64,000 nt of DNA, taken from Liolophura sinensis. Lineage: Eukaryota > Mollusca > Polyplacophora > Chitonida > Chitonidae. Each line of letters opens with the position of its first letter. Position 1 is the stretch's first letter. This document shows positions 12,653-60,276 of this stretch, piece by piece. The notes below the pieces were generated by a model. The model had not been told where the DNA came from and made no database searches. It saw only the letters and a program-made list of their open reading frames with translations. The DNA is taken from assembly GCF_032854445.1 (NCBI RefSeq), contig NC_088304.1:3782001-3846000 (forward strand), given 5' to 3'. The position numbers were made by a program, and so were the translations under genes.

Positions 12653-12693
12653 TGACTGCTGCCGTATGTGTAGTGAAATATTCTTGAGTAAGG
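12653..12693 (+). mobile_element. SINE 3' fragment abutting a minisatellite
   Basis: Reads 'gactgctgccgtatgtgtag', then 'tgaaatattcttgagtaagg', matching the SINE 3' region (gccgtcgtataagtgaaatattcttgagtacggcg). It breaks exactly where the C/A-rich array begins, at 'ggcgccacacaataaacccc'. Confidence 0.65.
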
Positions 12694-39900: not shown

Positions 39901-42900
39901 TATATAGATTTCATCTCTTTGTAGGCAGACGAGAAATGCGCCAAGTTTTCACTCTCAACTTCTGGTGTTTGAACCCTGCAGTGGTATGTTATATTGTCTT
40001 TTATTACTTTGCAAAAGATTAAGAAAAATTCTGATTCATTTTGAATAGTGTGACTAAAATGCTGACTGTCATGGAACGCTTCATTGCTCTGGAAGAATCT
40101 TGTCCTGTGTTGTTACAAATGTTTATAGCTCCATTGCCACACAAAACCACATTTTATTTTTAGGTTTTCTCTATACCATAAATTTTAAGAGTAGATCAAG
40201 ACAGATCACTGTTGTCAAACCTTGGATGTTGGTTTCTTTTTTAAAAAATGGAAAACTCACGTTTGTGGAGGTTGAGGAAGCTTCACTGCACATTTCGGGC
40301 ACATGGCAAATACTATTTATAACTCTCCTATAAAATGCAAACCATTGCCCATCATCTTTTTCTCTTGCAACTGCAGGCATTTTCGGACTTTGCTCTGGTG
40401 CGTAACATTGTGTTAACCAGCGGTACTCTGTCTCCGATGAGCTCATTTAGCTCCGAGTTAGGAATGTCGTTTCCAATCCAGTTAGAGGCCAATCATGTCA
40501 TCAAGGACTCGCAGGTATTTTTCCCTATAATATATATATATGTATCTTTATAGAGTTATTTTGTGTCTCCAGTCCAAAAGGATTGATGTCTCCCTTTCAG
40601 AATGATGTAAGATTTCATGTTAGTATCAGTCCTTCAGTTTGTCTTTTAATCCATCAATAAAACTTGGCACATTTCTTGTCTGCCTACAAAGAGAAGGAAC
40701 CGGTGAAATTTAAGCACTGTCTTGTTGGTGATATATTAATAAATATGTAGGTTAGCAAACTACAATTTATGATGCCTTTCTCTTTCACAAAATTAGTAAA
40801 TCCATTGCCTTGAAACTTTATGCAGGTGTGGGTTGGCAGCATCGGTGAGGGTCCATCAGGAGGTAAACTCCAGGCAACCTACAGGAACACAGAGACGTTT
40901 GGCTTCCAAGATGAGCTGGGCAAGCTAGTGCTGGAGGTGTGCAGGGTGAGTAACTGGGACATCAAACAGGATGGATGAGCTGGGCAAACTAGTGCTGAAG
41001 GTGTGCAGGGTGAGTAACTGGGACATCAAACAGGATGCATGAGCTGGGCAAACTAGTGCTGAAGGTGTGCAGAGTTGGTAACTCTGATGTCAAACAGAAT
41101 GGATGAGCTGGGCAGACTAGTGCTGAAGGTGTGCAGAGTGAGTAACTGGGATGCCAAACAGGATGGATGAGCTGGGCAGACTAGTGCCGAAAGTGTGCAG
41201 AGTGAGTAACTGGGATGCTAAACAGGATGGATGAGCTGGGTAGACTAGTGCTGAAGGTGTGCAGGGTGAGTAACTGGGACGGCAAACAGAATGGATGAGC
41301 TGGGCAGACTAGTGCTGAAAGTGTGCAGGGTGAGTAACTGGGACGTCAAACAGGATGGATGATGTGGGCAAACTAGTATTGAAAGTGTTCAGGGTGAGTA
41401 GGACATCAAACAGGGTGGATGAGCTGGGCAGACTAGTGCTGAAAGTGTGCAGGGTGAGTAACTGGATGGTCAAAAAGCTTGATTTGAACAGAAATGTTGT
41501 AAAACTGTTTTGTGAACACTAACCTGTACCTTTGATAACAATGTTTTAGTCATGAATAACATTTAATTTTTTTCACAGATATGGTGTGGTTTTGGCTCTT
41601 TGATCACCGCATGCCCTCAAATATTTGACACCAGTTTTGATCACTCAAAAAAGTTGGAAGTTCATTATGAAATGGAACCTGGAAGTTTACACAGCCTTGG
41701 TTTCTGAGATATTTTGGCTTTTCTAAATGCTAAGGCTCACATGTTTCCTGAAACCTATCATTGGAAGAAGAAACATTCATGTCATAATTCTAACAATATT
41801 TTCCGGCTATTCCTCATGGAGTTCTGTGTTTCGGGCTATTCCTCATGGAGTTCTGTGTTTCGGGCTATTCCTCATGGAGTTCTGTGTTTCGGGCTATTCC
41901 TCATGGTGTTCTGTGTTTCAGGCTATTCCTCATGGAGTTGTGTGTTTCAGGCTATTCCTCATGGTGTTCTGTGTTTCAGGCTATTCCTCATGGAGTTCTG
42001 TGTTTCAGGCTATTCCTCATGGAGTTCTGTGTTTCAGGCTATTCCTCATGGAGTTTTGTGTTTCAGGCTCTTCCTCATGGAGTTTTGTGTTTCAGGCTAT
42101 TCCTCATGGAGTTGTGTGTTTCAGGCTATTCATCATGGAGTTTTGTGTTTCGGGCTATTCCTCATGGTGTTCTGTGTTTCAGGCTATTTCTCATGGAGTT
42201 CTGTGTTTCAGGCTATTCCTCATGGAGTTGTGTGTTTCAGGGTATTCCTCATGGTGTTCTGTGTTTCAGGCTATTCCTCATGGAGTTCTGTGTTTCAGGC
42301 TATTCCTCATGGAGTTCTGTGTTTCAGGCTCTTCCTCATGGAGTTTTGTGTTTCAGTCTCTTCCTCATGGAGTTGTGTGTTTCAGGCTATTCCTCATGGA
42401 GTTGTGTGTTTCAGGCTCTTCTTCATGGAGTTCTGTGTTTCAGGCTATTCTTCATGGAATTGTGTGTTTCAGGCTATTCTTCACAGATTTGTGTGTTTCA
42501 GGCAATTCCTCATGGAATTCTGTGTTTCAGGCTATTCTTCACAGAGTTGTGTGTTTCAGGCTATTCTTCATGGAGTTGTGTGTTCCAGGCTCTTCTTCAT
42601 GGAGTTGTGTGTTTCAGGCTCTTCTTCATGGAGTTGTGTGCTTCAGGCTCTTCCTCATGGAGTTGTGTGTTTCAGGCTCTTCCTCATGGAATTTTGTGTT
42701 TCAGGCTATTCCTCATGGAGTTCTATGTTTCAGGCTATCCCTCATGGAGTTCTATGTTTCAGGCTATTCCTCATGGAGTTCTGTGTTTCCTACCCTCATA
42801 CAAAATGCTGGACAAACTGTCAGAGCGGTGGCAGGTGAGTGGTTTCTGTTAGAGAGTGACTGGAATGAGAATCGGAATCAGAGGTTCAGTGGCTATAGAA

Positions 42901-45900
42901 AAGTTATAGGAAAGTGATAGAATACAGAGACCAGAAAAAGTGGTTACACTTGGAGAGTAATCTGTATCCTTGCTACTTTGTCAGCGTAGTAGATTTGGAG
43001 ATCATACCTGTTTACATTGCTGCAAAAAAAACAATTACATTTCTGATTATTTAATAGACATTCCATCAATTATGTAGTAAAACTATAAAAAATACATGTG
43101 TGTAAAAAATAAATAATGTTTAATGTTCTAGAAATTCTAATGTGAGGAAATTTTACTTTATTTAATTTTTTGTTTATTTAAAGAGGACTGGCATTTATTA
43201 CAAAGGTTGTCTGTCCTTTTCCTTAGTATTGTTTTCTTGTTTAGGCCAAAACACAGTAAATGCTGCATTAGATTTGGAAAAATGCTGCTAAAATTATGAT
43301 TGTAAAACCTTCTTGTTTCCCCTCAATGTGCTCCTTGGTGTTTTAGCTCACAGGACTGTGGGGTGAGATCATCAAGAAGAAAAAGATAATCGCTGAGCCG
43401 CGACGAGGAGACAAGGCAGACTTTGATGACCTTCTCAAATACTTTTATGGTGTGATCGAGGGGGGAGCTGAGGATGACGATTATGGTGGGTCAGAAATTT
43501 TGTTGTTTCACTTTGATGACACAACTTGTTGTTTGCTACTTGAATTCCAATGAAGCATTCAACTAAAACTCAAATGGAATTTCACAAACTTTTGTAATTT
43601 TGCAGATACATGTAGGTGGGAAGAAAGAGGCTATACGACAAGCCCCAGGTTAACTTTGGAACATGTACTTCGCCTGTGTAGAGGTTATACATGTACTAGT
43701 TAGTCCATGGCCAAGAGGGTAAGCACCCCAGCACGGCGCATTGACCCAGGTTCCTCTCACCAATGTGGTCGGTGTGAGTTCAAGTCCTGCTTATGCTGGC
43801 TTCCTGTCCGGCCGAACGTGGGAAGGATTATCAAGTCCAGCTTATGCTGGCTTCCTGTCCGGCCGAACGTGGGAAGGTTTATCAAGTCCAGCTTATGCTG
43901 GCTTCCTGTCCAGCCAAACATGGGAAGGTTTATTACAGCCTGCAGATGGTCATGGGTTTCCCCCTGGGTTCTGCCAGGTTTTCTCCCACCATATAAATCC
44001 TGGTCGCCATGGTATAAGTGAAATATATATTCTTGAGTGCAGCGTAAAACACCAATCAAATAAATGCTTGCTAGTCAAATAAAATTTTCTTTATTTTTGC
44101 AAGAATTGCTTATATTATTGCCTTCCATTAAAAGATTCTAAAGTTTGGAAATGTTTTAATTTGAGTCAGTTTTAAGAACTTTATAACAGATTTTGAATGA
44201 AAACACATGCAAATACGACACTGACGATAAAAACGATATTTTGTGAAAGGTAAATATTCTAATAAACTAAAAAAATTCTGTTGGATTTGTGATGATTGAT
44301 CTTTTGCCAGTAATGTGCAGCATATCCATTTTAATGTTTAAACATTTAGAAGATTTACAGTATTATTCATTGATCCCCATTCGCGGGTACTCTACAAACC
44401 AAGAAAAAACCCACCCCCAAAACCACCACCCTCCAACCTCCACCCAACCCTCCCACTCAACACCCAGCACCATACCTCACCCAAAATGTTATTCGTGTTC
44501 GTTTAGACTAACATGCTTTGTCTTTGACGATGCCCACATTTATGTTGATAAACCCGTATATCATTTCTCCGTGTGATGACCCCTTCTACGAACAGACTAT
44601 GACGAGACGGATGGAGCTGATTCAGAAGTTGACGGGGCACTCTTCCTGGCCGTTTGTCGAGGTAAAGTCAGTGAAGGACTGGACTTTGCAGATAACAACG
44701 CCAGGGCTGGTCATCACAGTAAGAGATGAAGTACAATATTGGCTGAGATGCATATTAAAATATATAAATAAAATAAATCTTTTAACCTGGTTGCTACAAT
44801 CTTATCCTTGCTAGTTCAACAGCAATGATTATATCTGGAACGGATGGATCCACCACATCCAATGTCCTACAACCCCTTCTGGTGAAAATGTTACTTTTCA
44901 TTCCATTCCATGGGAAAGCAATTGTGAGGTTATGACATCACAAAAAATTTGAACATTTGTAACCAATGTGTGGGACATCCAGTTGGCCTACATTGAACAA
45001 TGTTGATTATGATTGGCTAAATATGTGTTCTTGATTGACATTTTGGAAAGGTCTATCTATCATCTACTTGGTAAAGGGCGATGGTTTTCACCAGCCATAA
45101 ATTGACATGGGTCATGTGAGAAAAAATATGTAGTACCAGAAAAGAGCATTCAGAAATGATCAACCAGTAATGATTAACCAGTAATGATCAACCAGTAGTG
45201 ATCGATGGGGGTCATTAATCTGTTTGGCTAGTGCAGAATGAATGAATGATTATGGCTTAATGCCTCATCGGCAATATTTCAGCCATATCGTGGCGACACT
45301 AGTGCAGAACTAATGGGTCGAATTTAATTCAGTTTTATTTAAAGCTGAATTACATTGGACTTTTGAATTACGTTGGAGCTGTAACTGACTTTTGCGGCGT
45401 GAGGCATGAATAGCTGGCAAACTTTGGAATGCTACATGTACGTGGATATGTTTTGGTTTCCAAGCCCTTTATTAATACAATGTGTATAATGAATTGTTTT
45501 CTCCATGGATTATGTACAATTTGTGTTTTACTCTAATTTCAGGTAGGAATTCCATTTCCGAATTTCAAGGATATTCAGGTAAGTGTTGTCAGAATAAAGG
45601 AATTAAATTGAAGAATTCTGTTAATGCTCCACACTGTGGTTCGTGAATATCGTATGATAACGTCATCTGAGCGTAACAATGTGAGACATTTTTGCTGAAA
45701 TACTTTATATGTGTCACGATATTTTATTCAAATAATGAATCCTAAGTGTTCTACTCTAAATAGTAAAATTACTAAGAAGGCTGTCAATATAATTGTTGAT
45801 ATTCCATTGACCATGTTTTATCGTAATATCCATAGTTGCTCACATGAGTAGCATTTAACACATGTGTAAGCCATGTTTAAAGCTTTGTTGAAGGTAGTGC

Positions 45901-48900
45901 AGAAAAAAAATGTTTTGTCAACTGGGCACTGAGCATCAAACACACAGTTTTTATATATATAGCAGTGAAAGGTACTGATGTTTGTACCGTTGTTTGCCAT
46001 TCAGGTATGTTTGACTCTTCACAGGTAGAGTTAAAGAGAAAGTATAACGACAGGTACAACAAACGAGCGTGGACTGTTGTCAGGCAGTGAGTGGTACGAG
46101 ATACAGGCGTACAGAGCTCTTAACCAGGCCCTGGGCAGGTGTATAAGACATAGGTCAGTTGTTNNNNNNNNNNNNNNNNNNNNNNNNNNNNNNNNNNNNN
46201 NNNNNNNNNNNNNNNNNNNNNNNNNNNNNNNNNNNNNNNNNNNNNNNNNNNNNNNNNNNNNNNNNNNNNNNNNNNNNNNNNNNNNNNNNNNNNNNNNNNN
46301 NNNNNNNNNNNNNNNNNNNNNNNNNNNNNNNNNNNNNNNNNNNNNNNNNNNNNNNNNNNNNNNAGTCCAGAAGAAAACTCAGAATTCCAATAAAAGGCCA
46401 AAAGGGGTGGATTTCCTTGATGACGGGGATGATGACAGACCAGCTGGTAACAAGGTTCAGAATCTCACTATAACATTTATATATGTATGTATTTATCTGT
46501 TTGGGAGGTTCTATCTGGCTCAGATAATTATCAAATTGATTGCTCACCATGACAACCAGGCCCTTGACCAATGAGTTTGTATGTTTGAATCCAGCTTTCA
46601 ATGGGTAAACCAACGTCCTTATGCCATGTTCAGCCAACCAAAACGTTTCAAATAAAAAAAGACACCCACAGAGGAATTTGTGCAGTGAACAGTATTGCTC
46701 AGATGTGCTCCTTAGATTCTTACTAATTTTATATACGTCCTTGTTTTGTGGAGGTGGGGGGGGGGGGGGGGGTTGTGTTTTTTTTTTTAAACTGCTGCAA
46801 CTTATGCTTTTACTGTTTTAGGAAGAGAAAACTTCAAAAGGAAATGTACGCTGTGTCAGATGTGGATCTGTCCTTGTACAAAATGCTGAAGGGTAATGTG
46901 TATATGTAAATTCATCAGGAACACAAGCCTGAAATAACTCATATTTCTGAGGTACAAGTGTATTTGGTGAGAGTTGCCTTTCTGGTGATCACCAGATTTC
47001 CTCCTTCCATAAGACTTTATTACCACTGTGAAGTTTAGTGGTAAGCTGTAAATTGCATGAGAGAGATAAGCTGTGACTTCATAGTAGTATACTTTTGACT
47101 TCATAGTAGTATACTTTTGACTTCATAGTAGTATACTTTTGACTTCATAGTAGTATACTTTTGACTTCATAGTAGTATACTTTTGACTTCATAGTAGTAT
47201 ACTTTTGACTTCATAGTAGTATACTTTTGACATCATAGTAGTATACTTTTGACTTCATAGTAGTATACTTTGGTAGTAAAGGAAACAGTTTTCAGTTGTA
47301 CTATGGAATCATCTCCAGAAATATAAAGTTTGATGGTAGTAAGCTATGCTAACTTCTATCAGGTACAGCAAAGTTTGTTTTTTTTTCAGTACACCTGATA
47401 GCCATTGCTTGTTAAAAACTATTTTGAAGTCTTTAAAATTTTTCCATTTTTTAAATTCATTTTATTGGGGCTTTTCACTGTACATGTACTCAAGAATTTA
47501 TGGCTTTAACAACTGTGGTCAGGATTGTCGATTGATGAGGTCATAAAACCACTCCCCTTTGACGGGTTTCTGATAAATCTGATTTATCTCTAGCTGAGCC
47601 AGTGAGTGTGACAGTGAGTGTGACAGGGAGTGTGACATTGATGTTCAGATATTCAGCGTCACTGTTTAAGCAGCAGTTGGTTGTGTCAAGACCGAAGCTT
47701 TAATAGTTAAATAGAGGTCTTTTGCATATACTCTTATAGCAACTCCCCATCACAATCAGCAGATTTATTTATTCATTTATTTATTTGATCAGTGTTCACT
47801 GACACGACAGCGGCCGGCATTATGATGGGAGGAAACCGGACAGAGCTCAGGGGAAACCCAGACCATTTGCAGGTTGCTGAGAGACCTCCCCATTTACGGC
47901 CGGAGAGGATACCAAATTTAAAACTCCTGTTATATTTTTCAGAAATGATTGACTGGTTATGGCTTTACACCAGCTCCGTTGCAGTATTTTTATAGTCGTA
48001 TAATTATGATGTACACTCAGGAGACGACGAAGGAACAATGAACACCTTTTACCACTGACTGCCAAACTGACCGCATCTGTACATTACAGGTACTGAGAAG
48101 AGGAAGAGACTGCCATCATTTCTCACATCCGTGTGGAATCAGCATATTTGCGAAAACGTGTTCATAAATCAGGGGCAGATAACCCAACAGCTCATTCCTG
48201 TCGCCTGCTCTTCAGATTGTTGTGGTAAGTTTTGGATCTCCAGGTACTGAAAGTTCTGCATATTTATTAGATTCATTACATTATTGTCTCAAGTGTTGCA
48301 CCTCATTGTGCCTGTATTTCTGATGGGAACTTTGCTGAACTGTGGAATGAAAGGAGATAATTCACTGTTAAGTGTATTATTTCGCGTTATGTGTATCTTC
48401 CCACTTCAGACTCCACAGTATTTCATGTTGAGTTTGGCTTAAAAGAAAAAGTCACTTTTGTCTTAAAGTCTCATGTCTCTGTGTGTTTCAGATGGAGTTC
48501 AGCTCAACAGTCAGTGGGACGTGACCAGTCAGTGTTGCATACAGTATCTCAGGTGTAAATCTTGTTCTCATGGAGACACAAATGTTATCCTAGGAGCACG
48601 CATTGCTCTAGCATCTGAAAACAGTGACTTTAAGCCCGGACAGGTAAGTCAATACAAATGTTATCCTAGGAGCACGCATTGCTCTAGCATCTGAAAACAG
48701 TGACTTTAAGCCCGGACAGGTAAGTCAATTCAAATGTTATCCTAGGAGCACGCATTGCTCTAGCATCTGAAAACAGTGACTTTAAGCCCGGACAGGTAAG
48801 TCAATACAAATGTTATCCTAGGAGCACGCATTGCTCTAGCATCTGAAAACAGTGACTTTAAGCCCGGACAGGTAAGTCAACACAAATGTTATCCTAGGAG

Positions 48901-51505
48901 CACGCATTGCTCTAGCATCTGAAAACAGTGACTTTAAGCCCGGACAGGTAAGTCAATACAAATGTTATCCTAGGAGCACGCATTGCTCTAGCATCTGAAA
49001 ACAGTGACTTTAAGCCCGGACAGGTAAGTCAATTCAAATGTTATCCTAGGAGCACGCATTGCTCTAGCATCTGAAAACAGTGACTTTAAGCCCAGACAGG
49101 TAAGTCAATACAAATGTTATCCTAGGAGCACGCATTGCTCTAGCATCTGAAAACAGTGACTTTAAGCCCGGACAGGTAAGTCAACACAAATGTTATCCTA
49201 GGAGCACGCATTGCTCTAGCATCTGAAAACAGTGACTTTAAGCCCGGACAGGTAAGTCAACACAAATGTTATCCTAGGAGCACTCTTTGCTCTAGCATAT
49301 GAAAACAGTGACTTTTAGAGCTGACAGGTAAATCAAACCTTACCAACATTTAAATTTTTAAAGTATTTAATTGTAACTATAGCGAAGATTTTTGACCAAA
49401 AAAAAAATGCTAATCAAACCAAATTTTCTGTATTTTAAAGTAATATCAGACTCATACATATGCTATCTGTAGTCTTTAAATGATTGACTAAGTTATAATG
49501 TGACCTTAAATTATGAATAATGTGAATTTAAATTTTGTGATCTTCCTGGCCAATTTTTTAATAGTACCATGAGCACAAGCGAAGTTTATTTTTTGTTATC
49601 GGTAGTTATCTGGGATATTCTAAAATAATAGCAGAAATTCAATTAGATTTGTGCTCATTGATTTTTGGCCAAAAATTTCTGGGATGGCCACTGTAATCAT
49701 TAAGTTTTTCTGTGTCTTTTTTTTGGGGGGCCCCAAAAGTATTTTTAGACCTACAGTCACGGAAAAAATTATTAGACCACTCATATTTTCTTTGGTTTCT
49801 TGTTCATTTTAATGCCTGGCAACCCTAAAGGTGTATTAACCGAAGATTACAATGAATACGACAAAAATCCAGCTGATTCCATAATACTTTGTCGTATTTG
49901 ATATGCTTTAAGGTCAGTTGTATTCCTAGGGTGTATGCGAGGCAATTTCATGCTTTCCATTTACATACAGACTTACATAAAGAGTGGTTTCCTGTTTACA
50001 TGTAGGCTTACATAAATAGGGGTCTCTTGTTTATATATTAAGACGCAGCACAACTCGGTAGTTGTCAGCTCTCATAATGCCTAAAGCGAAAGAATTATGT
50101 GGAACCAGAAAGGCAGCCATCTTGGCACAGCTGGATACTGGATTGAGCGAGCGACAAGTGGCCAAAAAACTGAAGATCTCTAAGACAGCAGTTCATTACA
50201 CCAAGAAAAAGCAAGCCGAACGTGGTACTACAAAACTGCTAGCTGGTCGAGCCAGGAAACGTCTTTCTACCCCACGAGATGACCGAGCACTCATCCGGTC
50301 CTGTATCAAGAATGGTCGTCAGACCTCCAGAGACCTTAGAAATGAGTGGGCATTGTCAACAAATGTGACTTGTTCAGCAAGAACAGTTCGAAACCGACTT
50401 CTTGAAGCTGGTCTAAAGTCGCACAGGGCACGGAAGAAGCCCTTCATCAACGAGAGGCAGCGGAAGGCCCGCTTGCGTTTTGCGAGGGATCACAAGAGTT
50501 GGACTGTTGATGATTGGGCTAAAGTTCTCTTCAGTGATGAATCCAATTTTGAGTTGATGCCTACTCCAGCCAACTCACTGGTTAGGAGGAAGCCTGGGGA
50601 AGCCTACAAACCAGACTGCCTTGCTCCTACTGTAAAGCATGGGGGTGGATCAGTGATGATCTGGGGTTGTTTCAGTATGGGTGGAACAGGACAGATGCAG
50701 TTGTGAGTTGGCTCGAATGACTGGATTTTCCAACAAGACAATGTCCCTTGCCACACGGCAAGGTCAGTTAAAACCTGGATAGAGAACCGGAACATTCGAA
50801 CCATGAATTGGCCTGCTCAGTCACCTGATCTGAATCCAATTGAAAACCTGTGGAATATTATCAAGTTCAAAATTTAGAACCACTAGCCGAAAAACAAAGC
50901 AAATTTGTTCGAATTTTTGCAACAGGAATGGGCTGCTGTGACCGCAGGGCAATGTAACAAACTGGTGGAGAGCATGCCAAGGCGCATGGCTGCAGTCATC
51001 AAAAACAATGGGCATGCAATCAAGTACTAACTCCCGTGTGAGACTGAGAGTCATGTGACTACGTGACTAGGAGACAGGAGAAAAAATGAAATGCCAAAAT
51101 GTTTTTGAGAATACAGTTGCTACATCTACAGATGTATGAACTTAAGTGATTTTGGTCATTGTCAAGAAAGTCATAGAGAACTGATAGATATCACCTCTTA
51201 AATAAAACCCTTATGAACTATTTCTGTTTTCATCACTTTCTTTGTCCAAACAAATGTTCCTTCAGTTGTGCAAGGTTTTAAAATGAACAAGAAATGGGAG
51301 AAAGCAAGGGTGGTCTAATAATTTTTTCCATGACTGTATATGTGATTCTGAGAGTGTATTTTTACAAACTTTTGAAAATATAGTAATCTGAGTGAAAGAA
51401 AAAGGTTAATGCCTAATTTGGTTACATTTATTATGCAGAACACCAATATTTGACTTCTTCCTTTATATTTTGCAGATTTGGCTTCAGGCGACTACTGTGA
51501 CGTGA
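18893..51505 (+). CDS. BRIP1: BRIP1/FANCJ-like Fe-S DNA helicase, split gene
   Basis: FANCJ is a superfamily 2, XPD-like 5'-to-3' DNA helicase with an Fe-S cluster, acting in the nucleus in interstrand crosslink repair and G-quadruplex unwinding. Inferred coding exons: 18893-18985, 19247-19358, 19977-20021, 20585-20776, 23598-23719, 24484-24995, 30386-30475, 31676-31769, 32383-32514, 33000-33095, 33634-33769, 35378-35424, 36652-36801, 37036-37199, 38064-38109, 38456-38489, 39925-39983, 40377-40514, 40826-40945, 42763-42834, 43347-43485, 44596-44718, 45543-45578, 46025-46153, one or more in the N gap, about 46364-46456, 46822-46892, 48090-48224, 48492-48643, 51476-51505 (TGA 51503-51505). Splice phases agree across junctions once six single-base insertions in short homopolymers are discounted. 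Exons 16 and 25 are the least certain. The motif order and wording match human FANCJ rather than RTEL1, DDX11 or XPD. Confidence 0.93.
19247..19358 (+). CDS. BRIP1: BRIP1 exon 2, Walker A motif
   Basis: Encodes '[14 protein letters not shown]', then '[19 protein letters not shown]'. SPTGSGKS is helicase motif I, which binds the phosphates of ATP. The exon is nearly superimposable on the human one. It is flanked by ttttag and GAG|gtgaga and ends in phase 1. Confidence 0.96.
20585..20776 (+). CDS. BRIP1: BRIP1 exon 4, Ser/Pro-rich linker
   Basis: Linker between motif I and motif Ia, low in predicted order. It begins 'GICTCNNGK' and continues with '[18 protein letters not shown]'. The C-x-C pair lies where human FANCJ has a Cys-rich CCCACH stretch. 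It is joined to the small exon at 19977-20021 (phase 1; an alternative donor lies 15 bases downstream) and followed by exon 23598-23719, which carries an acidic DDDDD stretch. Confidence 0.75.
22814..23083. repeat. intronic minisatellite, 6 x 45 bp
   Basis: Units start at 22814, 22859, 22904, 22949, 22994 and 23039 and read 'catgaactgttggtggtagg', 'agcatagactaactgctcag', then 'tgaag', in the intron before BRIP1 exon 5. The unit is a multiple of three, so one minus-strand frame stays open with a 15-residue period; I do not regard it as a gene. Confidence 0.95.
23335..23525. repeat. degenerate tandem repeat, 3-4 units
   Basis: Diverged units of roughly 55-65 bases share 'gttgaaatctgcactctgag', then 'gagtgtgggagtgtgatcga', then 'aaattgcag'. 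Confidence 0.75.
24484..24995 (+). CDS. BRIP1: BRIP1 exon 6 with internal 10-residue repeats
   Basis: The acceptor tttgtttccag is strong and the donor is AA|gtaagt. The exon encodes about eight degenerate 10-residue repeats of the type '[10 protein letters not shown]' (30 bases each, about 24624-24830). It ends in a Cys-rich piece, '[11 protein letters not shown]', that matches the position and style of 'CSRCCCSTKQG' in human FANCJ. The frame breaks three times: at A5 24527-24531, T3 24771-24773 and C4 24974-24977. Removing one base at each gives a continuous frame whose end ('PPPPKRK') splices in phase to '[11 protein letters not shown]' of the next exon. A weak alternative acceptor at 24523 would avoid the first break. 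Confidence 0.8.
25123..25345 (-). mobile_element. SINE, long copy in BRIP1 intron 6
   Basis: A (ttta)n tail is followed by 'gattggagttttacgcaaaa', a conserved core, and then a segment extending past the usual truncation point ('gagaggaagccaccatgagc') into the tRNA-like head ('ggcgaaaggcacctgggttt'). It is one of the more complete copies here. Confidence 0.75.
25346..30385. other. large BRIP1 intron 6 remainder
   Basis: About 5 kb between the long SINE and exon 7. It contains short 'gctaatt' and 'acagt' repeats around 27800-27970. I found no convincing coding exon or RNA gene; open frames near 26300-26570 and 30054-30380 look like chance, the latter simply running into exon 7. Confidence 0.5.
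30386..30475 (+). CDS. BRIP1: BRIP1 exon 7, motif Ia
   Basis: Encodes '[20 protein letters not shown]', then '[10 protein letters not shown]'; the core is identical to human FANCJ through [12 protein letters not shown]. Motif Ia contacts single-stranded DNA in this family. The acceptor is ttgtgcag and the donor AA|gtaagt, in phase 2. Confidence 0.96.
30752..30902 (-). mobile_element. SINE 3' portion (shared family)
   Basis: 'gattggtgttttacgccgta', then 'ctcaagaatatttcacttgt', and 'gcaggttgctggcagacctt'. Reverse orientation, within BRIP1 intron 7. Confidence 0.85.
31676..33095 (+). CDS. BRIP1: BRIP1 exons 8-10, Fe-S cluster domain
   Basis: Exons 31676-31769, 32383-32514 and 33000-33095. Four cysteines sit at the FANCJ cluster positions: 'EHTCIHP', '[10 protein letters not shown]', 'GPGCLFNNN' and 'ACPYYVSRG'. 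These ligate the 4Fe-4S cluster needed by XPD-family helicases to separate strands. Exon 9 also carries '[12 protein letters not shown]' (human 'CKAWDIEELVSL'), and exon 10 ends '[16 protein letters not shown]' (human 'IFCPYNYLLD'). All splice sites are canonical. Confidence 0.95.
33634..33769 (+). CDS. BRIP1: BRIP1 exon 11, DEAH box
   Basis: Encodes '[20 protein letters not shown]'. DEAH is helicase motif II, coordinating magnesium and the catalytic water. The exon ends in phase 1 at TTAG|gtaaga and joins the small exon at 35378-35424. Confidence 0.97.
33820..34125 (+). mobile_element. tRNA-derived SINE, second family
   Basis: The head carries a box-A-like 'tggcctaatggttagagcac' and a box-B-like 'ggatcaaaccc'. 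The body has 'ggtggcttcagcatgatact', 'ggacttgccctgccacatga', 'atctacacacacctgatgac', and ends 'atatgactgaaaaattgtta'. This body differs from the main SINE of the window. It lies in BRIP1 intron 11, immediately before the 49-bp tandem array. Confidence 0.75.
34128..35220. repeat. 1.1-kb minisatellite, ~49-bp unit, ~22 copies
   Basis: The unit reads 'acgaactgtatccggcatgt', 'gatcagtgagaagtgggatt', then 'tcacgttac'. Alternating variants (ggcatgt/ggaatgt, cacgtta/cacatta) suggest a higher-order dimer in the left half. Some units lack 'gatcagt'. It follows the SINE end within 10 bases. Confidence 0.95.
36652..37199 (+). CDS. BRIP1: BRIP1 exons 13-14, arch-like region
   Basis: Exons 36652-36801 and 37036-37199. 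Exon 13 encodes '[20 protein letters not shown]' and continues to 'GPKEFPALQ'. Exon 14 encodes '[20 protein letters not shown]' (human 'GLFMVLDYLFRQ') and ends 'RFVEDYR'. Both have consensus acceptors and keep phase (0, then 2). Confidence 0.9.
37353..37489. repeat. minisatellite, ~3 x 43 bp
   Basis: 'gttgtaatatatgaacctta' then 'aatatgcacctcatgaacca' repeats at 37353, 37396 and 37439, with a partial fourth at 37482. It lies about 150 bases after BRIP1 exon 14. Confidence 0.9.
37772..37850 (+). mobile_element. SINE 3' end (shared family)
   Basis: 'cctcccaccgtagtgctggc', 'cattgtcgtataagtcaagt', 'attcttgagtctggcgtaaa', 'acactaatcaaataaataaa'. Forward orientation, 5'-truncated. Confidence 0.8.
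38064..39983 (+). CDS. BRIP1: BRIP1 exons 15-17
   Basis: Exons 38064-38109, 38456-38489 and 39925-39983. Exon 15 gives '[15 protein letters not shown]'; exon 16 the short '[11 protein letters not shown]'; exon 17 '[18 protein letters not shown]', matching human '[14 protein letters not shown]'. Exon 16 is the weakest of these because it is short and poorly conserved, but its phases fit both neighbours and it has a GTAAGT donor. Confidence 0.78.
38581..39415. repeat. 23-bp minisatellite with higher-order structure
   Basis: The unit 'gggtcatgctatctgtgtagctt' (23 bases, variants ending acat or catg) runs about 33 times in BRIP1 intron 16. A different segment, 'gtgaacacacaaccctacac' then 'caggaaatgtcacagctatct', interrupts it at about 38970-39010 and 39130-39175, with a variant at 39416-39465. 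This implies duplication of a larger block of roughly 150-160 bases. Confidence 0.93.
40377..40945 (+). CDS. BRIP1: BRIP1 exons 18-19, motif III
   Basis: Exons 40377-40514 and 40826-40945. Exon 18 has '[20 protein letters not shown]' (motif III region, near-identical to human) then '[12 protein letters not shown]'. Exon 19 has '[13 protein letters not shown]' and '[13 protein letters not shown]', ending 'LEVCR' at an AGG|gtgagt donor. That donor is the first of a tandem series of near-identical donors. Confidence 0.96.
40910..41465. repeat. 64-bp array duplicating a 5' splice site
   Basis: Units start at 40910, 40974, 41038, 41102, 41166, 41230 and so on, about nine in all. The first is the last 36 bases of BRIP1 exon 19 (gatgagctgggcaagctagt, then gctggaggtgtgcagg) plus 28 bases of intron (gtgagtaactgggacatcaa, then acagga). 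Later copies keep both the exon-derived part and, in most cases, the gtgagt donor. Confidence 0.95.
41799..42790. repeat. 29-bp array duplicating a 3' splice site
   Basis: About 34 units of 'gctattcctcatggagttct' + 'gtgtttcag' (29 bases). The final unit is the true acceptor plus the first 27 bases of BRIP1 exon 20 (42763 onward). The array therefore repeats 'tttcag' followed by the start of the exon many times upstream. A unit of 29 with no stop in any frame leaves all three forward frames open for about 1 kb. Confidence 0.97.
42763..42834 (+). CDS. BRIP1: BRIP1 exon 20, motif IV region
   Basis: Encodes '[20 protein letters not shown]' then 'ERWQ', matching human '[22 protein letters not shown]'. 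The phase fits exon 19 (0) and exon 21 (0). The acceptor is the last of the tandem tttcag copies; I place it at 42762 because this gives the human-like length and frame. Confidence 0.93.
43347..43485 (+). CDS. BRIP1: BRIP1 exon 21
   Basis: Encodes '[20 protein letters not shown]' then '[20 protein letters not shown]', matching human '[20 protein letters not shown]' in position. It ends in an acidic stretch at TATG|gtgggt, phase 1. Confidence 0.92.
43700..44066 (+). mobile_element. near full-length SINE with internal 51-bp triplication
   Basis: The tRNA-like head is 'atggccaagagggtaagcac' (box-A-like) with 'gtgtgagttcaagtcc' (box-B-like). The core is 'gcttatgctggcttcctgtc', 'cggccgaacgtgggaagg', then 'gcagatggtcatgggtttcc', 'ttctcccaccatataaatcc' and a 3' end 'gcgtaaaacaccaatcaaat'. 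Units beginning 'agtccagcttatgctggctt' occur at 43783, 43834 and 43885 (51 bases each), an internal tandem triplication not seen in the other copies. It lies within BRIP1 intron 21. Confidence 0.85.
44596..45578 (+). CDS. BRIP1: BRIP1 exons 22-23, motif V
   Basis: Exons 44596-44718 and 45543-45578. Exon 22 encodes '[20 protein letters not shown]' then 'ADNNARA'; GKVSEGLDF is motif V. Exon 23 encodes '[12 protein letters not shown]' (human 'IGIPFPNVKDLQ'). As written, exon 22 ends out of frame because of 'gctggtcatcaca'; with one G fewer at 44709-44710 it reads 'ARAVIT' and splices in phase. Confidence 0.93.
45240..45310 (+). mobile_element. possible SINE/short repeat fragment
   Basis: 'gaatgattatggcttaatgc', 'ctcatcggcaatatttcagc' and 'catatcgtggcgacactagt' resemble a short element I associate with mollusc genomes. 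This copy is isolated and the call rests on memory, so confidence is low. Confidence 0.35.
46025..46153 (+). CDS. BRIP1: BRIP1 exon 24, motif VI
   Basis: Starts '[12 protein letters not shown]' (human 'VELKRQYND') and ends '[20 protein letters not shown]' then 'HR', motif VI with its arginine finger. The two halves are in different frames. Removing one A from 46061-46063 joins them as '[10 protein letters not shown]', paralleling human 'GLLPGRQWYE'. The donor is ATAG|gtcagt, and the assembly gap begins ten bases later. Confidence 0.92.
46164..46363. other. assembly gap (200 N)
   Basis: Exactly 200 N, a typical placeholder for unknown length. The part of the helicase immediately after motif VI in FANCJ (human 'NDWGALILVDDRFRNN' and beyond) is missing on both sides, so at least one coding exon must lie inside or has been lost. 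Confidence 0.98.
46364..46456 (+). CDS. BRIP1: BRIP1 exon 25, partial, acidic linker
   Basis: The open frame from the gap edge reads '[20 protein letters not shown]' then 'DDRPAGNK', typical of a disordered linker after the helicase core. The donor is uncertain: G|gtaaca at 46447 or AAG|gttcag at 46456. The 5' end is lost in the gap. Confidence 0.5.
46756..46772. repeat. G17 homopolymer
   Basis: Seventeen consecutive G residues, 50 bases upstream of BRIP1 exon 26 and followed by a T run. Confidence 0.95.
46822..51505 (+). CDS. BRIP1: BRIP1 C-terminal exons, putative zinc-binding module
   Basis: Exons 46822-46892, 48090-48224, 48492-48643 and 51476-51505. They encode '[18 protein letters not shown]', '[20 protein letters not shown]', '[18 protein letters not shown]', '[19 protein letters not shown]' and end 'IWLQATTVT' at TGA. 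Two C-x2-C pairs about 80-100 residues apart suggest one four-cysteine zinc site, like that of the RIG-I C-terminal domain in style only. Human BRIP1 has no such ending that I recall. The first exon needs one G removed from 46891-46893 to stay in phase; without that, another frame ([11 protein letters not shown]...) splices cleanly but lacks the first C-x2-C. The last intron contains the Tc1-like element. Confidence 0.72.
47075..47272. repeat. minisatellite, ~9 x 22 bp
   Basis: The unit 'cttcatagtagtatactttt' + 'ga' repeats almost perfectly in BRIP1 intron 26. Confidence 0.95.
47765..47912 (-). mobile_element. SINE 3' portion (shared family)
   Basis: A tttattta tail, then 'gatcagtgttcactgacacg', 'acagcggccggcattatgat', 'gcaggttgctgagagacctc' and 'catttacggccggagaggat'. 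It lacks the 'acgccgtactcaagaatatt' block, an internal deletion. Confidence 0.75.
48578..49330. repeat. 76-bp array duplicating a 5' splice site
   Basis: The last 66 bases of BRIP1 exon 28 (cacaaatgttatcctaggag through agcccggacag) plus the first 10 intron bases (gtaagtcaat) are repeated. Donors gtaagt fall at 48644, 48720, 48796, 48872, 48948, 49024, 49100, 49176 and 49252, with a degraded one at 49328. Copies differ by only one or two bases, so the expansion is recent or homogenised. Confidence 0.97.
49754..51336. mobile_element. Tc1-like DNA transposon, decayed
   Basis: The left terminal inverted repeat begins 'cagtcacggaaaaaattatt' then 'agaccac'; the right end is its reverse complement apart from one base ('gtggtctaataattttttcc' then 'atgactg'). 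Both ends are flanked by TA (49752-49753, 51337-51338), the Tc1/mariner target duplication. Length is 1583 bases. It sits inside the last BRIP1 intron on the same strand. Confidence 0.93.
50077..51030 (+). pseudogene. Tc1-like transposase, interrupted
   Basis: ATG at 50077, '[20 protein letters not shown]', followed by a helix-turn-helix ('[20 protein letters not shown]') and a second DNA-binding helix block. Catalytic landmarks of the DDE domain are present: 'VLFSDESNF', '[11 protein letters not shown]' and '[11 protein letters not shown]'. A stop at 50704-50706 interrupts it, and roughly 40 residues usual between the 'WGCFS' block and 'FQQDN' appear deleted; another stop follows 'NIIKFKI'. 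The frame then continues to TAA at 51030. It cannot encode an active transposase. Confidence 0.9.
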
Positions 51506-51525
51506 TAAAAGGAAAGGGAAGTGTG

Positions 51526-51870
51526 GAGGTATGAATGGAAATGCATCTTGGAGGGATGAATGGAAATGCATCTTGGAGGGATGAATGGAAATGCAGTGTG
51601 GAGGGATGAATGGAAATGCATCTTGGAGGGATGAATGGAAATGCAGTGTGGAGGGATGAATGGAAATGCAGCTTGGAGGGATGAATGGAAATGCAGTGTG
51701 GAGGGATGAATGGAAATGCAGTGTGGAGGGATGAATGGAAATGCAGTGTGGAGGGATGAATGGAAGTCCAGTGTGGAGGGATGAATGGAAATGCAGCTTG
51801 GAGGGATGAATGGAAATCCAGTGTGGAGGGATGAATGGAAATGCAGTGTGGAGGGATGAATGGAAAGGCA
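51526..51870. repeat. minisatellite, ~13 x 25 bp
   Basis: The unit 'tggaaatgcagtgtggaggg' + 'atgaa' starts about 20 bases after the BRIP1 stop codon. Its seed resembles the adjacent 'gaagtgtggaggtatgaatg'. The His/Pro/Phe-rich minus-strand open frame across it is an artefact. Confidence 0.95.
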
Positions 51871-51933
51871 TTCTGAAATGGCGGAATAAGTGTAAAAAAT
51901 TCAGTGGATAAATGGAGTGAAATACATGCATGG

Positions 51934-53723: not shown

Positions 53724-53768
53724 TGAAATATTCTAAAGTAAAACACCAATCAAATAAATAAATAAATA
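53724..53768 (+). mobile_element. SINE 3' tail fragment
   Basis: 'gaaatattctaaagtaaaac' followed by 'accaatcaaataaataaata'. Only the last ~45 bases of the element remain. Confidence 0.7.
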
Positions 53769-54469: not shown

Positions 54470-54527
54470 CGTCGTATGAGTAAACTGTTCTTCAGTACGG
54501 CGTAAAACACCAATCAAAATCAATATG
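54470..54527 (+). mobile_element. SINE 3' tail fragment
   Basis: 'gccgtcgtatgagtaaactg', 'ttcttcagtacggcgtaaaa', 'caccaatcaaaatcaa'. A diverged 3' end of the main SINE family. Confidence 0.7.
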
Positions 54528-54914
54528 CAGCCACATATTCCTGGTTACTTCAGAACGCTTTATGTCCAATAAAATGGAAGCTAACGGCACTTTTGGTAGT
54601 TTCCGTCTCCCATAACACTGACCGCCATCTTATAGGTGAAATCATAAAACAGGTCTTCTTCAAACGACATTTTTATGAAGCTTAGAAGACTTCAGAAGTC
54701 CCATTTCAGATTCTAACAAATAGGTTCACTGAATGGCGATATAACAGCTGTGATAAACGCAAACGATATGTTTTATGGGCTCGTTGTACAAAGCAGTCGC
54801 AAACCGCCGGGTATAATTCCCATGTCAGCATACAGCGATTAGATACATCATGGTAAATGCGCCTGTTGAAGTAGCTTTGTAGAATGGGTCCATGAAACAA
54901 ACCAGTAGATGAAC

Positions 54915-55075
54915 AACATTTATTTGTTTATTTGATTGGTGTTTTACCTACTACTCAGGAATGTTTCACGTATAGGAGAGCAGCCAGCTTTATGGTGGGT
55001 GGAAACTTGATAGAGCCCGGGGAAACACGATCAGCCGCAGGCTGCTGCCAGACCTTCCCAAGTGCTGGAACCAGC
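54915..55075 (-). mobile_element. SINE 3' portion (shared family)
   Basis: 'tttatttgattggtgtttta', 'actcaggaatgtttcacgta', 'cagccagctttatggtgggt' and 'cgcaggctgctgccagacct'. Reverse orientation. Confidence 0.8.
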
Positions 55076-56420
55076 TCCATAGGTCAGACCTTCATCTGAA
55101 CCAATATTCCTACATGACAATTAGGGTTAAAAGTTTATAAATCGTAATAAGTATGGAATAAGTGATAAAGTAATGTATTATTGTTGCCAGATGGCAGCAT
55201 AAACCAGTTGTATTTGACACAGCTGCTGTACACTGAAGCAATTGAACAGGCGTTTCCCTTTTTTGTGAATCACCAGTGATAATAAACCTTGACTCTATAA
55301 CCTATGGAACCTCAAATAGGCCTAACATTCAGATGCGGCTTGATGGTTTACTGGAGCAATTCTACGACAGAAAGAATCGTGTTTCTTCATAATATTAGAC
55401 GTAGATGCAGTTAACATTTTCGGCACAGTGCCCCTTTGTGTATGTTGAGAGGCCTATCTTATTCCCCATGGGAAAGAAGTTTTGTTTAGTTTTTCACGTT
55501 GGAACATGCTTTGGCCTATACCTCATCTGGTTGCCGATAGGGAAGTGATCACGTGATTACCTTAATACGCTGCTCTCAAACTGCAAGCCTCAGTTGTGGT
55601 TGCAAATATGGAAATGGCCTTCTGTCTAGCCATTGTTTTTCCGATATAAAAATGATCAGCTCTTTGCCGAAGTGGAAACAGACAACTATTCACCGATATG
55701 GAAATGACCTTCTGTTTGCCGATATGGATTTCATACCATGCAACGTAGGTATAAGTTCCGTTCTAGGTACCTCCTTCGATGTAACGCTTTTTACGATAAA
55801 TAGAGTATTGTCTCATGATGAAGTCAGCCGTTATTTCCCACTATCATGTAATCTTCGATAAATATTTACAGCTAGGAATAAATGTTTGTCCACAGTCCTA
55901 GCTCCCGCTGGGTGTAGCGTTTGTGTTGCCGTGCTCTGGTAAATGATACCAGACCCGTCAAAACCATGTGGATCATCATGTATAGAAAATATCATGCAGT
56001 CGTAGCGACTCCAAAAATACCATCGCAACTTGCCATCTTGTTCTAGGTGAAACGAAAAGATAACCTGTCTTATGGAACAAAAGTGGCTAAGCGTTGGTCT
56101 TCCATACAAATTCAATAACAACACTGGATTTATCTAGGCATTGCTGAACATCAACTCTGTCTGTCAATGACCTGAGGACGGCAGAAAGTGGCAACCGTGT
56201 GTTTCACATGAATACCATCTTGCTTAACAACAAAAGGTTTACCTTGTATCTGGAGTTGTAAAGTATAGTTTCAGGATGCCCTGTTTCGGTAAAACTTGAT
56301 CAAACACTATCCCTTCCTTAAGATCAATTTCTCTCCCATGCTGACCGAAGACTGTAAATTTTGCTTTAAGCAAAAGTACTGACACAATTAATTCATCCAG
56401 TCGACGTGACTTCACAAAAA

Positions 56421-59400
56421 CTACGCCCTATTTGAAATCGGTTTTGTCGGTTCCATCGTTTCTGGATCTAAAGAGGGGAAAACAATACTGTTCGTGGGTT
56501 TTCCGTGGGGTGTTTCTTCTATGGGACTCAAAACCCTTTGCTTCCGTCTGCCGGATAAAGTTTCAGCGGGTTTCCTGGGCGTGCCTGTGAGGTATCTGTT
56601 TTTGGCTGGGCTCGTTTTGTGTTTCAGTGGAGACGTGGCCGTGGCAGAGTAATTTTTTGGAAGAGCTTCCGGTTTCTCTTCGGTGCCTAATCGTCTGCCG
56701 CGGAACAAAACACCTGACTTAAGTTCCGCATTTTCTTCTTCAAGTGCCTTCATTTGCGCCTCCTTCCACTGAAGACGTTTGGAAATATGCTGTATCTCTT
56801 CACGAAGCATTCCCAGCGTCGAGCGCAGTGACCGGAAGTCAAAAGTTACATTTCCGGCTGATAGTGGCGATGTTGCTACGCCTTCAAAAGTAACTCCTCC
56901 AGGTTTGAACTCGTTTTGGGATTTTGTACCCTTGTCTTCTTTCAGGGCCGCGCTTATTGTCTGAATATCCCGCAGCAGATGTTGCTTCTCTTTGTTCTCT
57001 TTGTTAATAAACATCCTCAGAGCGTCTGTTGTTGAAAGGTCTTTTTCTCGAGGATTTGTTCCCAGCAACGCCAGAATGGTGTCTTTCTCTTTGGTCCTGG
57101 TGGTCTCGACCTCCTTGATGTCGTGGCTGAAGTTTTGCGCAACTCGAAGAAGAAGGCTGATCACCGAATCCAGCTCCGCCATTTTCCGTCGATCTTCGGG
57201 TTTACCCTTGTTTCCGTCCCCGAGAATGCCGGACCCGTAGGTGTACGTCACTTCCACATCATGGTCTTTCAAAATCTCGCCCATTGACTGTTGCAGTTTT
57301 GTAGTCAATTCGGTCACGTGACGTGCGTACTGGGCCAATCGTTCGCTTAGTTTGGTGATCGTTGAGTTGTTGGCGGTGTTGAAGCGCATTTGCTTTGACA
57401 AGTTCTCCTTGTGATCTAATTCACTTTGGGATATCGTGGTCTTCAGTTCTTTGATTTTTTGATCTTTGTCCTCGGTGTCCTTGAAGGCCTGTTCCAAACG
57501 GGATTCTAGCTCCGATACCTAGAACAACGAAGACTGAATGGTTGATTATTGTGGACTTAAATCTATTAATACAACACTTGCTTTGATTAACTTAATTATT
57601 TGACTGGAGTTTACTGCCGTATTCAAGAATATTTGACTTATACGACGGCGGTCAGCATTGTGATGCGAGAAAACCTGACAGGGCCCGAGGGAAACTCATG
57701 AACATATGTAGGAGAGAAGCCAGAAATCCAACTTGCATTGATCGTATTGGTGAGAGATTCATAGGTAACACTTGTTTTGTGTTCCCAATAAGTGCAAAAT
57801 TAAATATTTAAAATCATACATCATATTTTGGCACACGTCTTGCATATTCTTATCTTAATAAGATTGCACACGTTAAAATATTCTGTACCATATACTAAAG
57901 TCCAGTTACAGGCTCCAACTTAAATTATGGTGTGTGTCTGTCTCTCATCAGATAGAATTGCGACTACCGGTGTTACTGTACAATCTTATACCGGCGAAAA
58001 GTAATAAATACTTGCTCATTTCCACTGTGACATACTCACCTTTTGTTGGCACCTTTCCAAAGAACGCTGTTTTTCCTCCTCCTGGTGATAATGTTCCTTA
58101 CGAATCTCTTCAATCCGATCCTTCTCGCGTTCCGAGGCGTTCCAAGTCTTCTTGGCTATCGCTCCTTTTATCTGTTATGGAATGTAAGAAGGTAATGTTA
58201 GTGGCGGTTGATTTGTTCCCTTTTGTGGCCTTCACTTAGCTTTCAACATTATTTTGATCATATAACGATAGTCCCAAGGCCGCTATATTTATAACGCTGT
58301 TTCACTAGAAAATAAGCCCCTTGCGCCGTCAGAGTATATTCTACTGACACTAGTATGGTCTGCTTGGCCTATCCCCTGGTGCTAGGTGTCAAGCCAGCGA
58401 GAGGCCTCACTGGCTCAAAAGGTAAAGGCGACAATTAGGGTTTTGGCAACTGTGGTCGCATGCTCGAATCCAGCTCTCTTTCTCTCTTACGACTGTGGAT
58501 TAAGTCAGGACGGGTGTCTGGTATCTGGTGAAGATCGGTGCTATACTCTCTGCACTCCTGTTTCCTTCACTTTTACAAACCTCACCACCGTTACATACGA
58601 GAAAAATTCGTGTGCACCGTGCAAACTGTCACTGAAGAACAGTCCAAAGGGACCAATCAGTCAAATCAAGTCAGCAAAGCTGGGGAAGTACCCAAAATCA
58701 GACCCAGTGTCCGACCCCTCTCCTTCCCCCCTCCCATCCCACCCAACAAGAGCAACAAGAGTAACTCCTGCATTTAGTCCGTCAGATGACGCGTGATAAT
58801 TAACTTTTCATTGGCATCGGCGAGCATCATTCCTCGGAATTTTTGTTTGTATATATGTATGATTTTCATTTCATGTTTTGTGGTAAGTATTTCTTAAATG
58901 GCCATTCAATCAAACATTCCATTAGATTATTCTAAAGCTACTCTGTGATGGAGAAGAGTGTAGAACGTATGGTTGATAATTTGTAGCTGTTATGTAATGA
59001 ATGATTCGTACCTTACTTTCGACGTAATGGCACAGTCTCTTCATATCGTCCAGACCCAGGCAGCTGGCTACTGATGGTATACGTCGTTCTATTTCACCCG
59101 CATTCACGTACTGGGTTCCAGGTTTGTCTGGGGAATAAGAAAATACCGCTTAATATCTCGTGTAACTTGACATGAAATTTTGAAGTTTAAGCTAAGTACA
59201 AACGTTCCACCGTCGCTTAAATCGTTCGGTGTTAGAGTTGTAAGTTATCTTGCCAAAAATGTCAAAATGCCAGATTATTTTTCCATTCTAAATTCATGTT
59301 TGAATTGTGTCAGTGGTTTTGTACTTCAGTACTTACTTTGTCTTACCTTCGTCATGTAGAAAGTCCGCTAACAATGAGTGTCCCGTGAATAGCAATATGT

Positions 59401-60276
59401 AAGTAAATTTCCTGAATGCGTTCTTGTTCCGTAGTTTGAGTACATTGATAAGCCGTTCATTTTGCTCCTGTTGAGTCTTTCCTTCCTGGTGAAAAAAATA
59501 CAAATAAAAGACATCCATTAAAAGCATTTTAAATAAACTCAGCATGTTTTCCTACTCGTTGTACAAGACAGTGTGAAACTCTCGTGTCTGCATCACACTC
59601 TTCGCACTCACTCACTCAATCAATCACTGATTAGGACATTATCTGTATGTTCCTCAGCATGGTTTCTGTCACCACTTTATCAGACAACAGCCTGGCGTGT
59701 AACTCTGGCGTGTGGATTACATTCTTCACACTCACTCAATCAGTCACTGATTAGGACATTACCTGTATGTCCCTCAGCATGGTTTCTGTCACCACTTTAT
59801 CAGACAACAGCCTGGCGTGTAACTCTGGCGTGTGGATTACATTCTTCACACTCACTCAATCAGTCACTGATTAGGACATTACCTGTATGTCCCTCAGCAT
59901 GGTTTCTGTCACCACTTTATCAGACAACAGCCTGGCGTGTAACTCTGGCGTGTTGTATTACATTCTTCACACTCACTCAATCAGTCACTGATTGTGACAA
60001 TACCTGTCTGTCTCTCAGCATGGTCTCTGTCACAACTTTATCAGGCAGCAGCCTGGCGTGTAACTCTGGCGTGTGTATTACATTCTTCACACTCACTCAA
60101 TCAGTCACTGATTAGGACATTACCTGTATGTCCCTCAGCATGGTTTCTGTCACCACTTTATCAGACAACAGCCTGGCGTGTAACTCTGGCGTGTGGATTA
60201 CATTCTTCACCAGCAGGTACCGGTTGGCGTCCAGGATCTTCTTGTGCTGCTCGTCCAGCCGGTATCTCTTAGACAT
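56421..60276 (-). CDS. CARD and coiled-coil protein, 5 exons, 545 aa
   Basis: Exons in transcript order: 60276-60124, 59485-59347, 59127-59012, 58171-58040, 57518-56421 (stop 56421-56423). Every junction is GT/AG and all phases agree (0, 1, 0, 0), giving 546 codons with no frame break. Residues 1 to about 97 look like a CARD: 'EQHKKILDANRYLLVKNVI', 'ELHARLLSDKVVTETMLRDI', 'QNERLINVLKLRNKNAFRKF' and 'GHSLLADFLHDEG', with the helix pattern of caspase-2/RAIDD-type CARDs. Next come a linker ('GLDDMKRLCHYVESK'), an acidic/basic helix ('EREKDRIEEIRKEHYHQEEE') and a long heptad-rich coiled coil ('ESRLEQAFKDTEDKDQKIKE', later 'KALEEENAELKSG'), then a basic Ser/Pro-rich tail. CARDs mediate homotypic assembly in apoptosis or innate immunity, so an adaptor role is plausible. 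I do not recognise a named orthologue. Confidence 0.85.
57588..57775 (-). mobile_element. SINE in CARD-gene intron 4
   Basis: 'ttatttgactggagtttact', 'gccgtattcaagaatatttg', 'acttatacgacggcggtcag', continuing to 'gagagaagccag'. Diverged, with part of the core deleted. Confidence 0.75.
58405..58520 (+). mobile_element. tRNA-derived SINE head fragment
   Basis: 'cactggctcaaaaggtaaag' (box-A-like region) and 'gtcgcatgctcgaatccagc' (box-B-like), then 'cgactgtggattaagtcagg'. It parallels the fragment at 15095-15200. It lies in the intron between CARD-gene exons 3 and 4, on the opposite strand. Confidence 0.5.
59570..60225. repeat. 120-bp array duplicating a CARD exon and its 5' splice site
   Basis: Period 120-121: 'ttaggacatt' or its variant recurs at 59631, 59751, 59871, about 59992 and 60112. 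On the minus strand each unit contains about 85 bases of CARD-gene exon 1 (coding 'VIHTPELHARLLSDKVVTET', then 'MLRDIQ'), the gta donor, and about 35 intron bases. The copy at 60124 onward is the true exon end; four more donors follow downstream in the intron, plus a partial copy near 59573. Confidence 0.95.

Follow-up and report, generated by a model that had tools for sequence, protein, structure and literature searches.

Here, we have analyzed a stretch of 64,000 nucleotides from the chiton Liolophura sinensis (C10:3782001-3846000, contig NC_088304.1, of a 609,464,459-base genome in 632 contigs; hereafter the window, with positions counted from its first base) and found that five of the 49 exon ends mapped in it are straddled by minisatellites, the units of which carry exon sequence plus the splice site. 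Such straddling arrays are probably the outcome of accidental tandem duplications that spanned an exon end and were tolerated, their extra copies being intronic. On this explanation, a short segment that happened to include the exon end would have been duplicated in tandem like any other, and unequal exchange or slippage may then have enlarged the array. Splicing would still use the site in the copy attached to the exon (the first donor or the last acceptor), leaving exon length unchanged; since the further copies are intronic, their cost would be low, and the arrays would persist through tolerance rather than benefit. In the gene regions examined, arrays take up 12–17% of bases, a density high enough for a few exon ends in every hundred to be caught. 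Chance and tolerance are supported by the make-up of the units, which derive from exons, by the occurrence of such arrays in genes unrelated to one another, by a frequency within about two-fold of that in the neighbouring intron, and by the lack of both a triplet bias and clear conservation of the splice dinucleotides. An earlier note on this DNA had offered three explanations for four such arrays, among which tolerance of intronic copies is the one that fits best.

Arrays were detected with Tandem Repeats Finder (TRF), and the exon content of their units was checked by unit alignments. Both placed the four arrays of the earlier note, seeded at exon–intron boundaries, where it had put them, and a fifth, A4 at 51520, had been missed; the arrays that it counted are real, but its four of roughly 35 exon ends becomes five of 49. 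Calling of exon ends relied on protein matches plus a small matrix of splice sites from this window, not on RNA. Two of the arrays occupy opposite ends of one intron of the BRIP1/FANCJ gene, that between exons B14 and B15. A1 (40910..41465, plus strand; 8.8 copies of 64 bp) lies on the donor side and includes 36 bp of B14 (40826..40945, plus strand; donor AGG|GTGAGT at 40945|40946) in its first unit, and A2 (41800..42789, plus strand; 34 copies of 29 bp) lies on the acceptor side and includes 27 bp of B15 (42763..42834, plus strand; acceptor TTTCAG|GCT at 42762|42763) in its last unit. The other three are on the donor side. The first unit of A3 (48578..49336, plus strand; 10 copies of 76 bp) takes in 66 bp of X1 (48492..48643, plus strand; donor CAG|GTAAGT), an exon beyond a run of N that was called from its splice sites and open frame and for which Pfam gave no match. 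A4 (51520..51870, plus strand; 14 copies of 25 bp) starts 9 bp inside X2 (51476..51528, plus strand; donor GAG|GTATGA), a weak exon for which splice signals and a single open frame are the whole of the evidence. Finally, the first unit of A5 (59609..60210, minus strand; five copies of 120 bp) has 87 bp of C1 (60124..60276, minus strand; donor CAG|GTAATG), the first coding exon of a CARD gene with its ATG at 60276.

That the arrays always run from the exon edge into the intron, as had been remarked, is true but follows by definition, because whichever copy adjoins the body of the exon counts as exon, which makes every further copy intron. A3 is nearly uniform, eight of its nine further copies being 97–100% like the exon copy, and its variants recur in a four-unit pattern, which is a sign of recent block duplication. 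Similarity to the exon copy was lowest in the last copies of A3 (0.88) and A1 (0.82), but not in those of A4 and A5. Thirteen other arrays of the window, all beyond 17 kb and not including that at 49960, were compared with 27 exons by BLAST. Twelve had no match, and the thirteenth (24652-24831) lies wholly inside coding exon B4. In this 30-bp array of a probable coding exon, a 10-residue repeat extends over part of the array, in a poorly conserved stretch of BRIP1.

Recurrence was examined in a held-out sample of exons found by Pfam family protein match, blind to repeats, in three gene families of the same genome: 81 matches for myosin head, 50 for TCP1 and 132 for kinesin (263 in all), of which 204 were analysed and 173 lay within the 257,475 sampled bases. 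Matches with several in-frame stops were mostly passed over when choosing sequence stretches, and some stretches were picked down the match lists after the first count was known. Out of 338 exon ends called, 57 were dropped for low splice scores, which left 281 confident ends (140 donors and 141 acceptors). Arrays made up 12.4% of the sampled sequence, and 15 of the 281 ends were flagged as straddled; by eye, in a sorting made after counting, 10 of these were strong, four weak and one false. The strong cases comprise eight on the donor side (C3:25740887, C1:4570948, C1:72038329, C8:53405971, C10:35194817, C11:27412983, C12:686729 and C12:684214) and two on the acceptor side (C8:682171 and C2:5378501). 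The weak ones are C9:756885 (about 6 bp of exon), C9:4628084 (7 bp), C9:5672128 (2.4 copies) and C8:10565028 (two copies of 267 bp), and C6:54957544 was rejected as a straddler, its probable donor sitting earlier. By hand, the scored donor was shifted back by 4 bases at C3:25740887 and by 68 at C1:4570948. Two myosin-head exons within 2.5 kb of each other (C12:683422-686914) are each straddled at the donor, by 18 copies of 31 bp and eight copies of 66 bp, respectively. With 10 strong and four weak cases at 281 ends, and with the pattern found on several scaffolds, the general process suspected in the earlier note holds in so far as the arrays recur in unrelated genes of one genome, but exon ends are not clearly a hot spot. 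Straddling arrays turn up regularly in the genes sampled, and coding bodies are kept free of arrays: none in the sample had at least 90% of its length within a matched exon.

The answer to the hot-spot question depends on the null that is used. Under free placement there is no excess. In the window, where 26 arrays occupy 16.6% of the sequence, 4.2–4.7 arrays over exon ends are expected and five were seen (P of at least five = 0.42–0.54), and in the sample 31–35 covered ends are expected against the 15 flagged. Random placement was the comparison on which the earlier note had staked its idea, and the sample does not rise above it; however, this null allows too much, since selection would eliminate most arrays that fall within exons. 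If no more than one unit is allowed in the exon, an excess appears in the window and, more weakly, in the sample. For the window, 0.9–1.2 arrays are then expected (P = 0.002–0.004 for five arrays and 0.010–0.028 for four), although this test was made after the fact and X1 and X2 had been spotted partly through their arrays. For the sample, strict straddlers (at least three copies, a unit of at least 15 bp and at least 9 bp of exon) numbered 10, whereas array density in the adjoining intron predicts 4.6, 5.4 or 6.1 when taken at 0–400, 0–200 or 0–100 bp (P = 0.020, 0.049 and 0.090, respectively).

Such figures give some substance to an alternative that we nevertheless consider unlikely, namely that exon ends are true seeds, at which splice-site words or transcription-linked breaks raise the rate of duplication. 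Both the window test and the excess in the held-out exons speak for it. On the other hand, the latter excess is small and borderline, free placement predicts more covered ends than were found, and array boundaries fall 11 times within one unit inside the exon, six times within one unit of intron and 13 times in the second intron unit. The contrast of 11 with 6 has a P of 0.17 and the 13 exceeds the 11, so that the exon end is not singled out. Relative to the prediction from the neighbouring intron, exon ends are enriched at most about two-fold, and the suggestion that splice-site words favour slippage amounts at best to an effect of this size. The results leave room for a mild preference for exon ends.

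Several observations tell against chance duplication with tolerated copies and should be set beside it. Strict straddlers are 1.6–2.2 times the expectation (P = 0.02–0.09, according to the intron stretch used), and all 15 flagged ends compare with 7.0 expected (P = 0.006). The density of strict arrays in introns drops with distance from the exon, from 0.40 to 0.16 per kb over 0–600 bp, where uniform placement predicts no drop. In addition, the 66-bp unit at C8:53405971 is in frame and open, with no stop, and could add open sequence, and the A2 array is open in all three frames, so that an in-frame extension would be possible there.

A further count may be mentioned on the side of seeding. A pattern search of the genome for three CAGGTAAGT words 38–68 bases apart yielded 373 matches and the reversed word 153, these being raw numbers unscaled by single-word frequency. 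One array on C1 supplies 39 of the 100 matches listed, and in the sampled sequence single words occur seven times (forward) and once (reversed), with none of the 140 donors being exactly CAGGTAAGT. As the counts are not normalised and are dominated partly by the one C1 array, nothing was drawn from them as evidence for a hot spot. In a long array at C1:93392582-93394463, many of the units contain CAGGTAAGT, which recurs at intervals of about 36 bp.

The two sides of the intron appeared to be hit unequally. Eight of the 10 strong sample cases and four of the five window arrays are on the donor side, and the combined 12 of 15 gives a two-sided P of 0.035 (0.11 for the sample alone). Enrichment and direction, which the earlier note had proposed to count genome-wide, come out in the sample as an excess of at most about two-fold and, with the window included, a donor-to-acceptor ratio of 12:3. 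Non-straddling strict arrays within 400 bp of the exon are divided into 14 on the donor side and 17 on the acceptor side (contrast with straddlers, P = 0.075). When arrays of every kind are counted, those that lie within 100 bp and do not straddle number 9 on the donor side and 5 on the acceptor side, and part of the donor bias may therefore belong to intron starts generally. Tentatively, and with more doubt than confidence, we propose that exon-end minisatellites form a genome-wide class in the chiton at about 4–5% of exon ends, which is donor-biased (12 of 15 strong cases) through a sorting of survivors by order of transcription, and that junctions may also be mild hot spots of duplication. 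According to this proposal, a repeated donor would keep the true site the first to be transcribed, a repeated acceptor would set decoys ahead of the true one, and 'first come, first served' splicing would filter the accidents. The donor-side excess is the freshest lead to come from these data.

It is very improbable that the arrays came first and that one of their units later supplied the exon end, through exonization or a shift of splice site. A4 is the array that could be read in this way, only its exon-joined copy (one of 14) having GT: the GGAGGTATGA of this copy appears as GGAGGGATGA in 13 of 13 further copies, with GG replacing GT, so that none of them would serve as a donor. Exon X2 itself has no known relative, although no search for one was made. 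However, the exon parts of A1 and A2 align to human BRIP1, B14 matching residues 645-685 (tblastn E = 4e-12) and B15 residues 682-712 (E = 4e-7), and that of A5 lies within the CARD domain. Units of these three arrays copy exon sequence coding for conserved protein, so that the exon is the source and the array the derived part. Likewise, the exons of all 10 strong sample cases are Pfam-matched as myosin, TCP1 or kinesin, although by the rule of selection.

We regard as very unlikely the view that the extra copies are spare splice sites kept by selection, which would buffer or regulate splicing. Unit length is a multiple of three in four of the 15 arrays; there is no triplet bias and hence no sign of translated extra copies. 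Reading past the exon end, a stop was met ahead of the second donor in A1, A3 and A5 and in five of the eight strong donor arrays of the sample (C10:35194817 not scored), and at C1:4570948, which has no stop, the second donor is 68 bases on and out of frame. GT is kept in eight of eight further copies of A1, nine of nine of A3, three of four of A5 and none of the 13 of A4, and AG at 29 of the 33 upstream unit joins of A2, being absent at the other four. Taken over all arrays, 9 of 14 retain the dinucleotide throughout their scored copies (C10:35194817 was unscorable), compared with 7.8 expected from all dinucleotide columns; it is lost in some copies of the three acceptor arrays, A4 and A5. 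Donor arrays on their own lean towards retention, 9 of 11 keeping GT throughout (seven of seven scorable sample arrays, plus A1 and A3), and for human IFI6 the use of two downstream repeat units as donors has been described (PMC4526556). A separate tally for the strong cases, in which the site was retained in 78 of 82 copies against 68 expected, was set aside, since only 22 bases were scored, the site itself had been used in placing the copies and the copies are not independent. With no clear excess of conservation, the further copies fit neutral sequence rather than kept spares, and the idea that redundant sites buffer splicing finds no support here.

Relics of intron gain by tandem duplication, after the Rogers model or the 'mirage' model from lancelets, are a highly improbable source of the arrays. 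The B14–B15 intron, which has an array at each end, would be the candidate, and the nearest human BRIP1 intron presumably lies about 14 codons from it. In the simple model, both ends of such an intron share duplicated exon sequence, but in this one intron tested A1 matches B14 only and A2 matches B15 only. Collapsed or falsely expanded repeats in the assembly can scarcely account for the arrays: nothing specific points to such an artefact apart from the one 200-N run at 46164-46363, copies within arrays differ by substitutions, the pattern recurs across scaffolds, and the matching published assembly was made from PacBio HiFi reads (PMC11068029).

The earlier note knew of no named class of this kind, but arrays of similar anatomy have been named 'mirages' in lancelets (amphioxus), and human boundary repeats were catalogued in 2009 (PMC2812944). 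As described in the lancelet papers, mirages are minisatellite-like repeats with a unit of 10–160 bp spanning a 5' or 3' exon–intron boundary; many, not all, of their copies have AG/GT, and the array ends escape homogenization (PMC3087553; PMC3902484). Mirage genes are Adh3 and globins, with PGBD5 and TnC as further lancelet cases (PMC3902484), and the Adh3 data together with reverse transcription PCR (RT-PCR) of globins suggest that mirages leave splicing undisturbed (PMC3087553). The chiton arrays have four anatomical features of mirages: the unit holds exon and intron sequence of one boundary (five window and 10 strong sample arrays), both types of boundary are hit (12 donor and three acceptor), units measure 25–120 bp in the window and 31–137 bp in the strong sample cases, and many but not all copies keep AG/GT (in the strong sample cases, 78 of the 82 copies followed). 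Unlike the mirage reports, the present data come from a mollusc and provide a frequency from repeat-blind exons, whereas the lancelet work has allele length polymorphism and RT-PCR to set against a single assembly here.

A minisatellite of human IFI6 (6-16) with multiple splice donors was reportedly the subject of work by Turri in 1995, and its tandem units resemble those of the chiton in carrying splice donors. In IFI6, two downstream units are used as donors in transcripts (PMC4526556), whereas most of the second donors predicted in the chiton lie behind a stop. De Grassi and Ciccarelli (2009) catalogued human internal tandem repeats at exon–intron boundaries in segmental duplications, including 27 curated intron modifications; the cases are likewise minisatellite expansions at a boundary, by which gene structure is altered, but human paralogues were compared, and most of the introns also have a transcript that retains the repeat in an exon (PMC2812944). 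Tandem units also hold splice signals in fission yeast, in potato and in human dual-specific-site introns, but there the array turns exon into a new intron, whereas in the chiton an existing intron end is repeated (PMC4974935, PMC3629103, PMC10809524). No report of mirages in molluscs was found in the open-licence PMC literature, in searching that was only partly aimed at molluscs. As far as this search reaches, the occurrence in a mollusc, the frequency from repeat-blind exons and the hint of a donor bias are new. At C12:684214, a conserved exon is followed by as many as 18 similar donors; this is a natural test of spliceosome choice among near-equals, which RNA reads from a single chiton could resolve for many genes. 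It should also be noted that, with exon ends affected at a rate of a few per cent, gene prediction in such genomes can misplace ends by whole units, as our splice-site scorer did at C1:4570948.

The two genes of the window are, on predicted protein similarity, BRIP1/FANCJ on the plus strand and a CARD gene on the minus strand. The former is marked by ordered and mostly significant matches from 18920 to 46157 (tblastn with the human BRIP1 sequence), and the latter starts at the ATG at 60276 and, when exons C1 and C2 are joined, gives a CARD domain (Pfam E = 3.8e-8). Exons B3, B4, B20, X1, X2, C3 and C4 were called from splice signals and an open frame alone, and the BRIP1 matches lend no support to B3, B4 and B20. 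In exon B19 (46025-46070) there is a frame slip, the human BRIP1 matches changing frame around 46064, which could be a sequencing indel or a real change. The assembly gap of 200 N lies inside or directly after BRIP1, and the end of the BRIP1 helicase domain was not found within the window. Between X1 and X2 is a remnant of a Tc1/mariner-like transposase (50062-50877) with one stop (Pfam HTH_Tnp_Tc3_2, E = 3.3e-20). Two adjacent arrays of 34-bp units at 12690-14136 are rich in AATAAACCCCAACA and show a strong strand skew (GC skew -0.44). Finally, a dispersed repeat with similar translated strings, present on both strands at 8395, 11394, 25123, 30735, 47773, 54896 and 57596, is probably an element resembling a short interspersed element (SINE).

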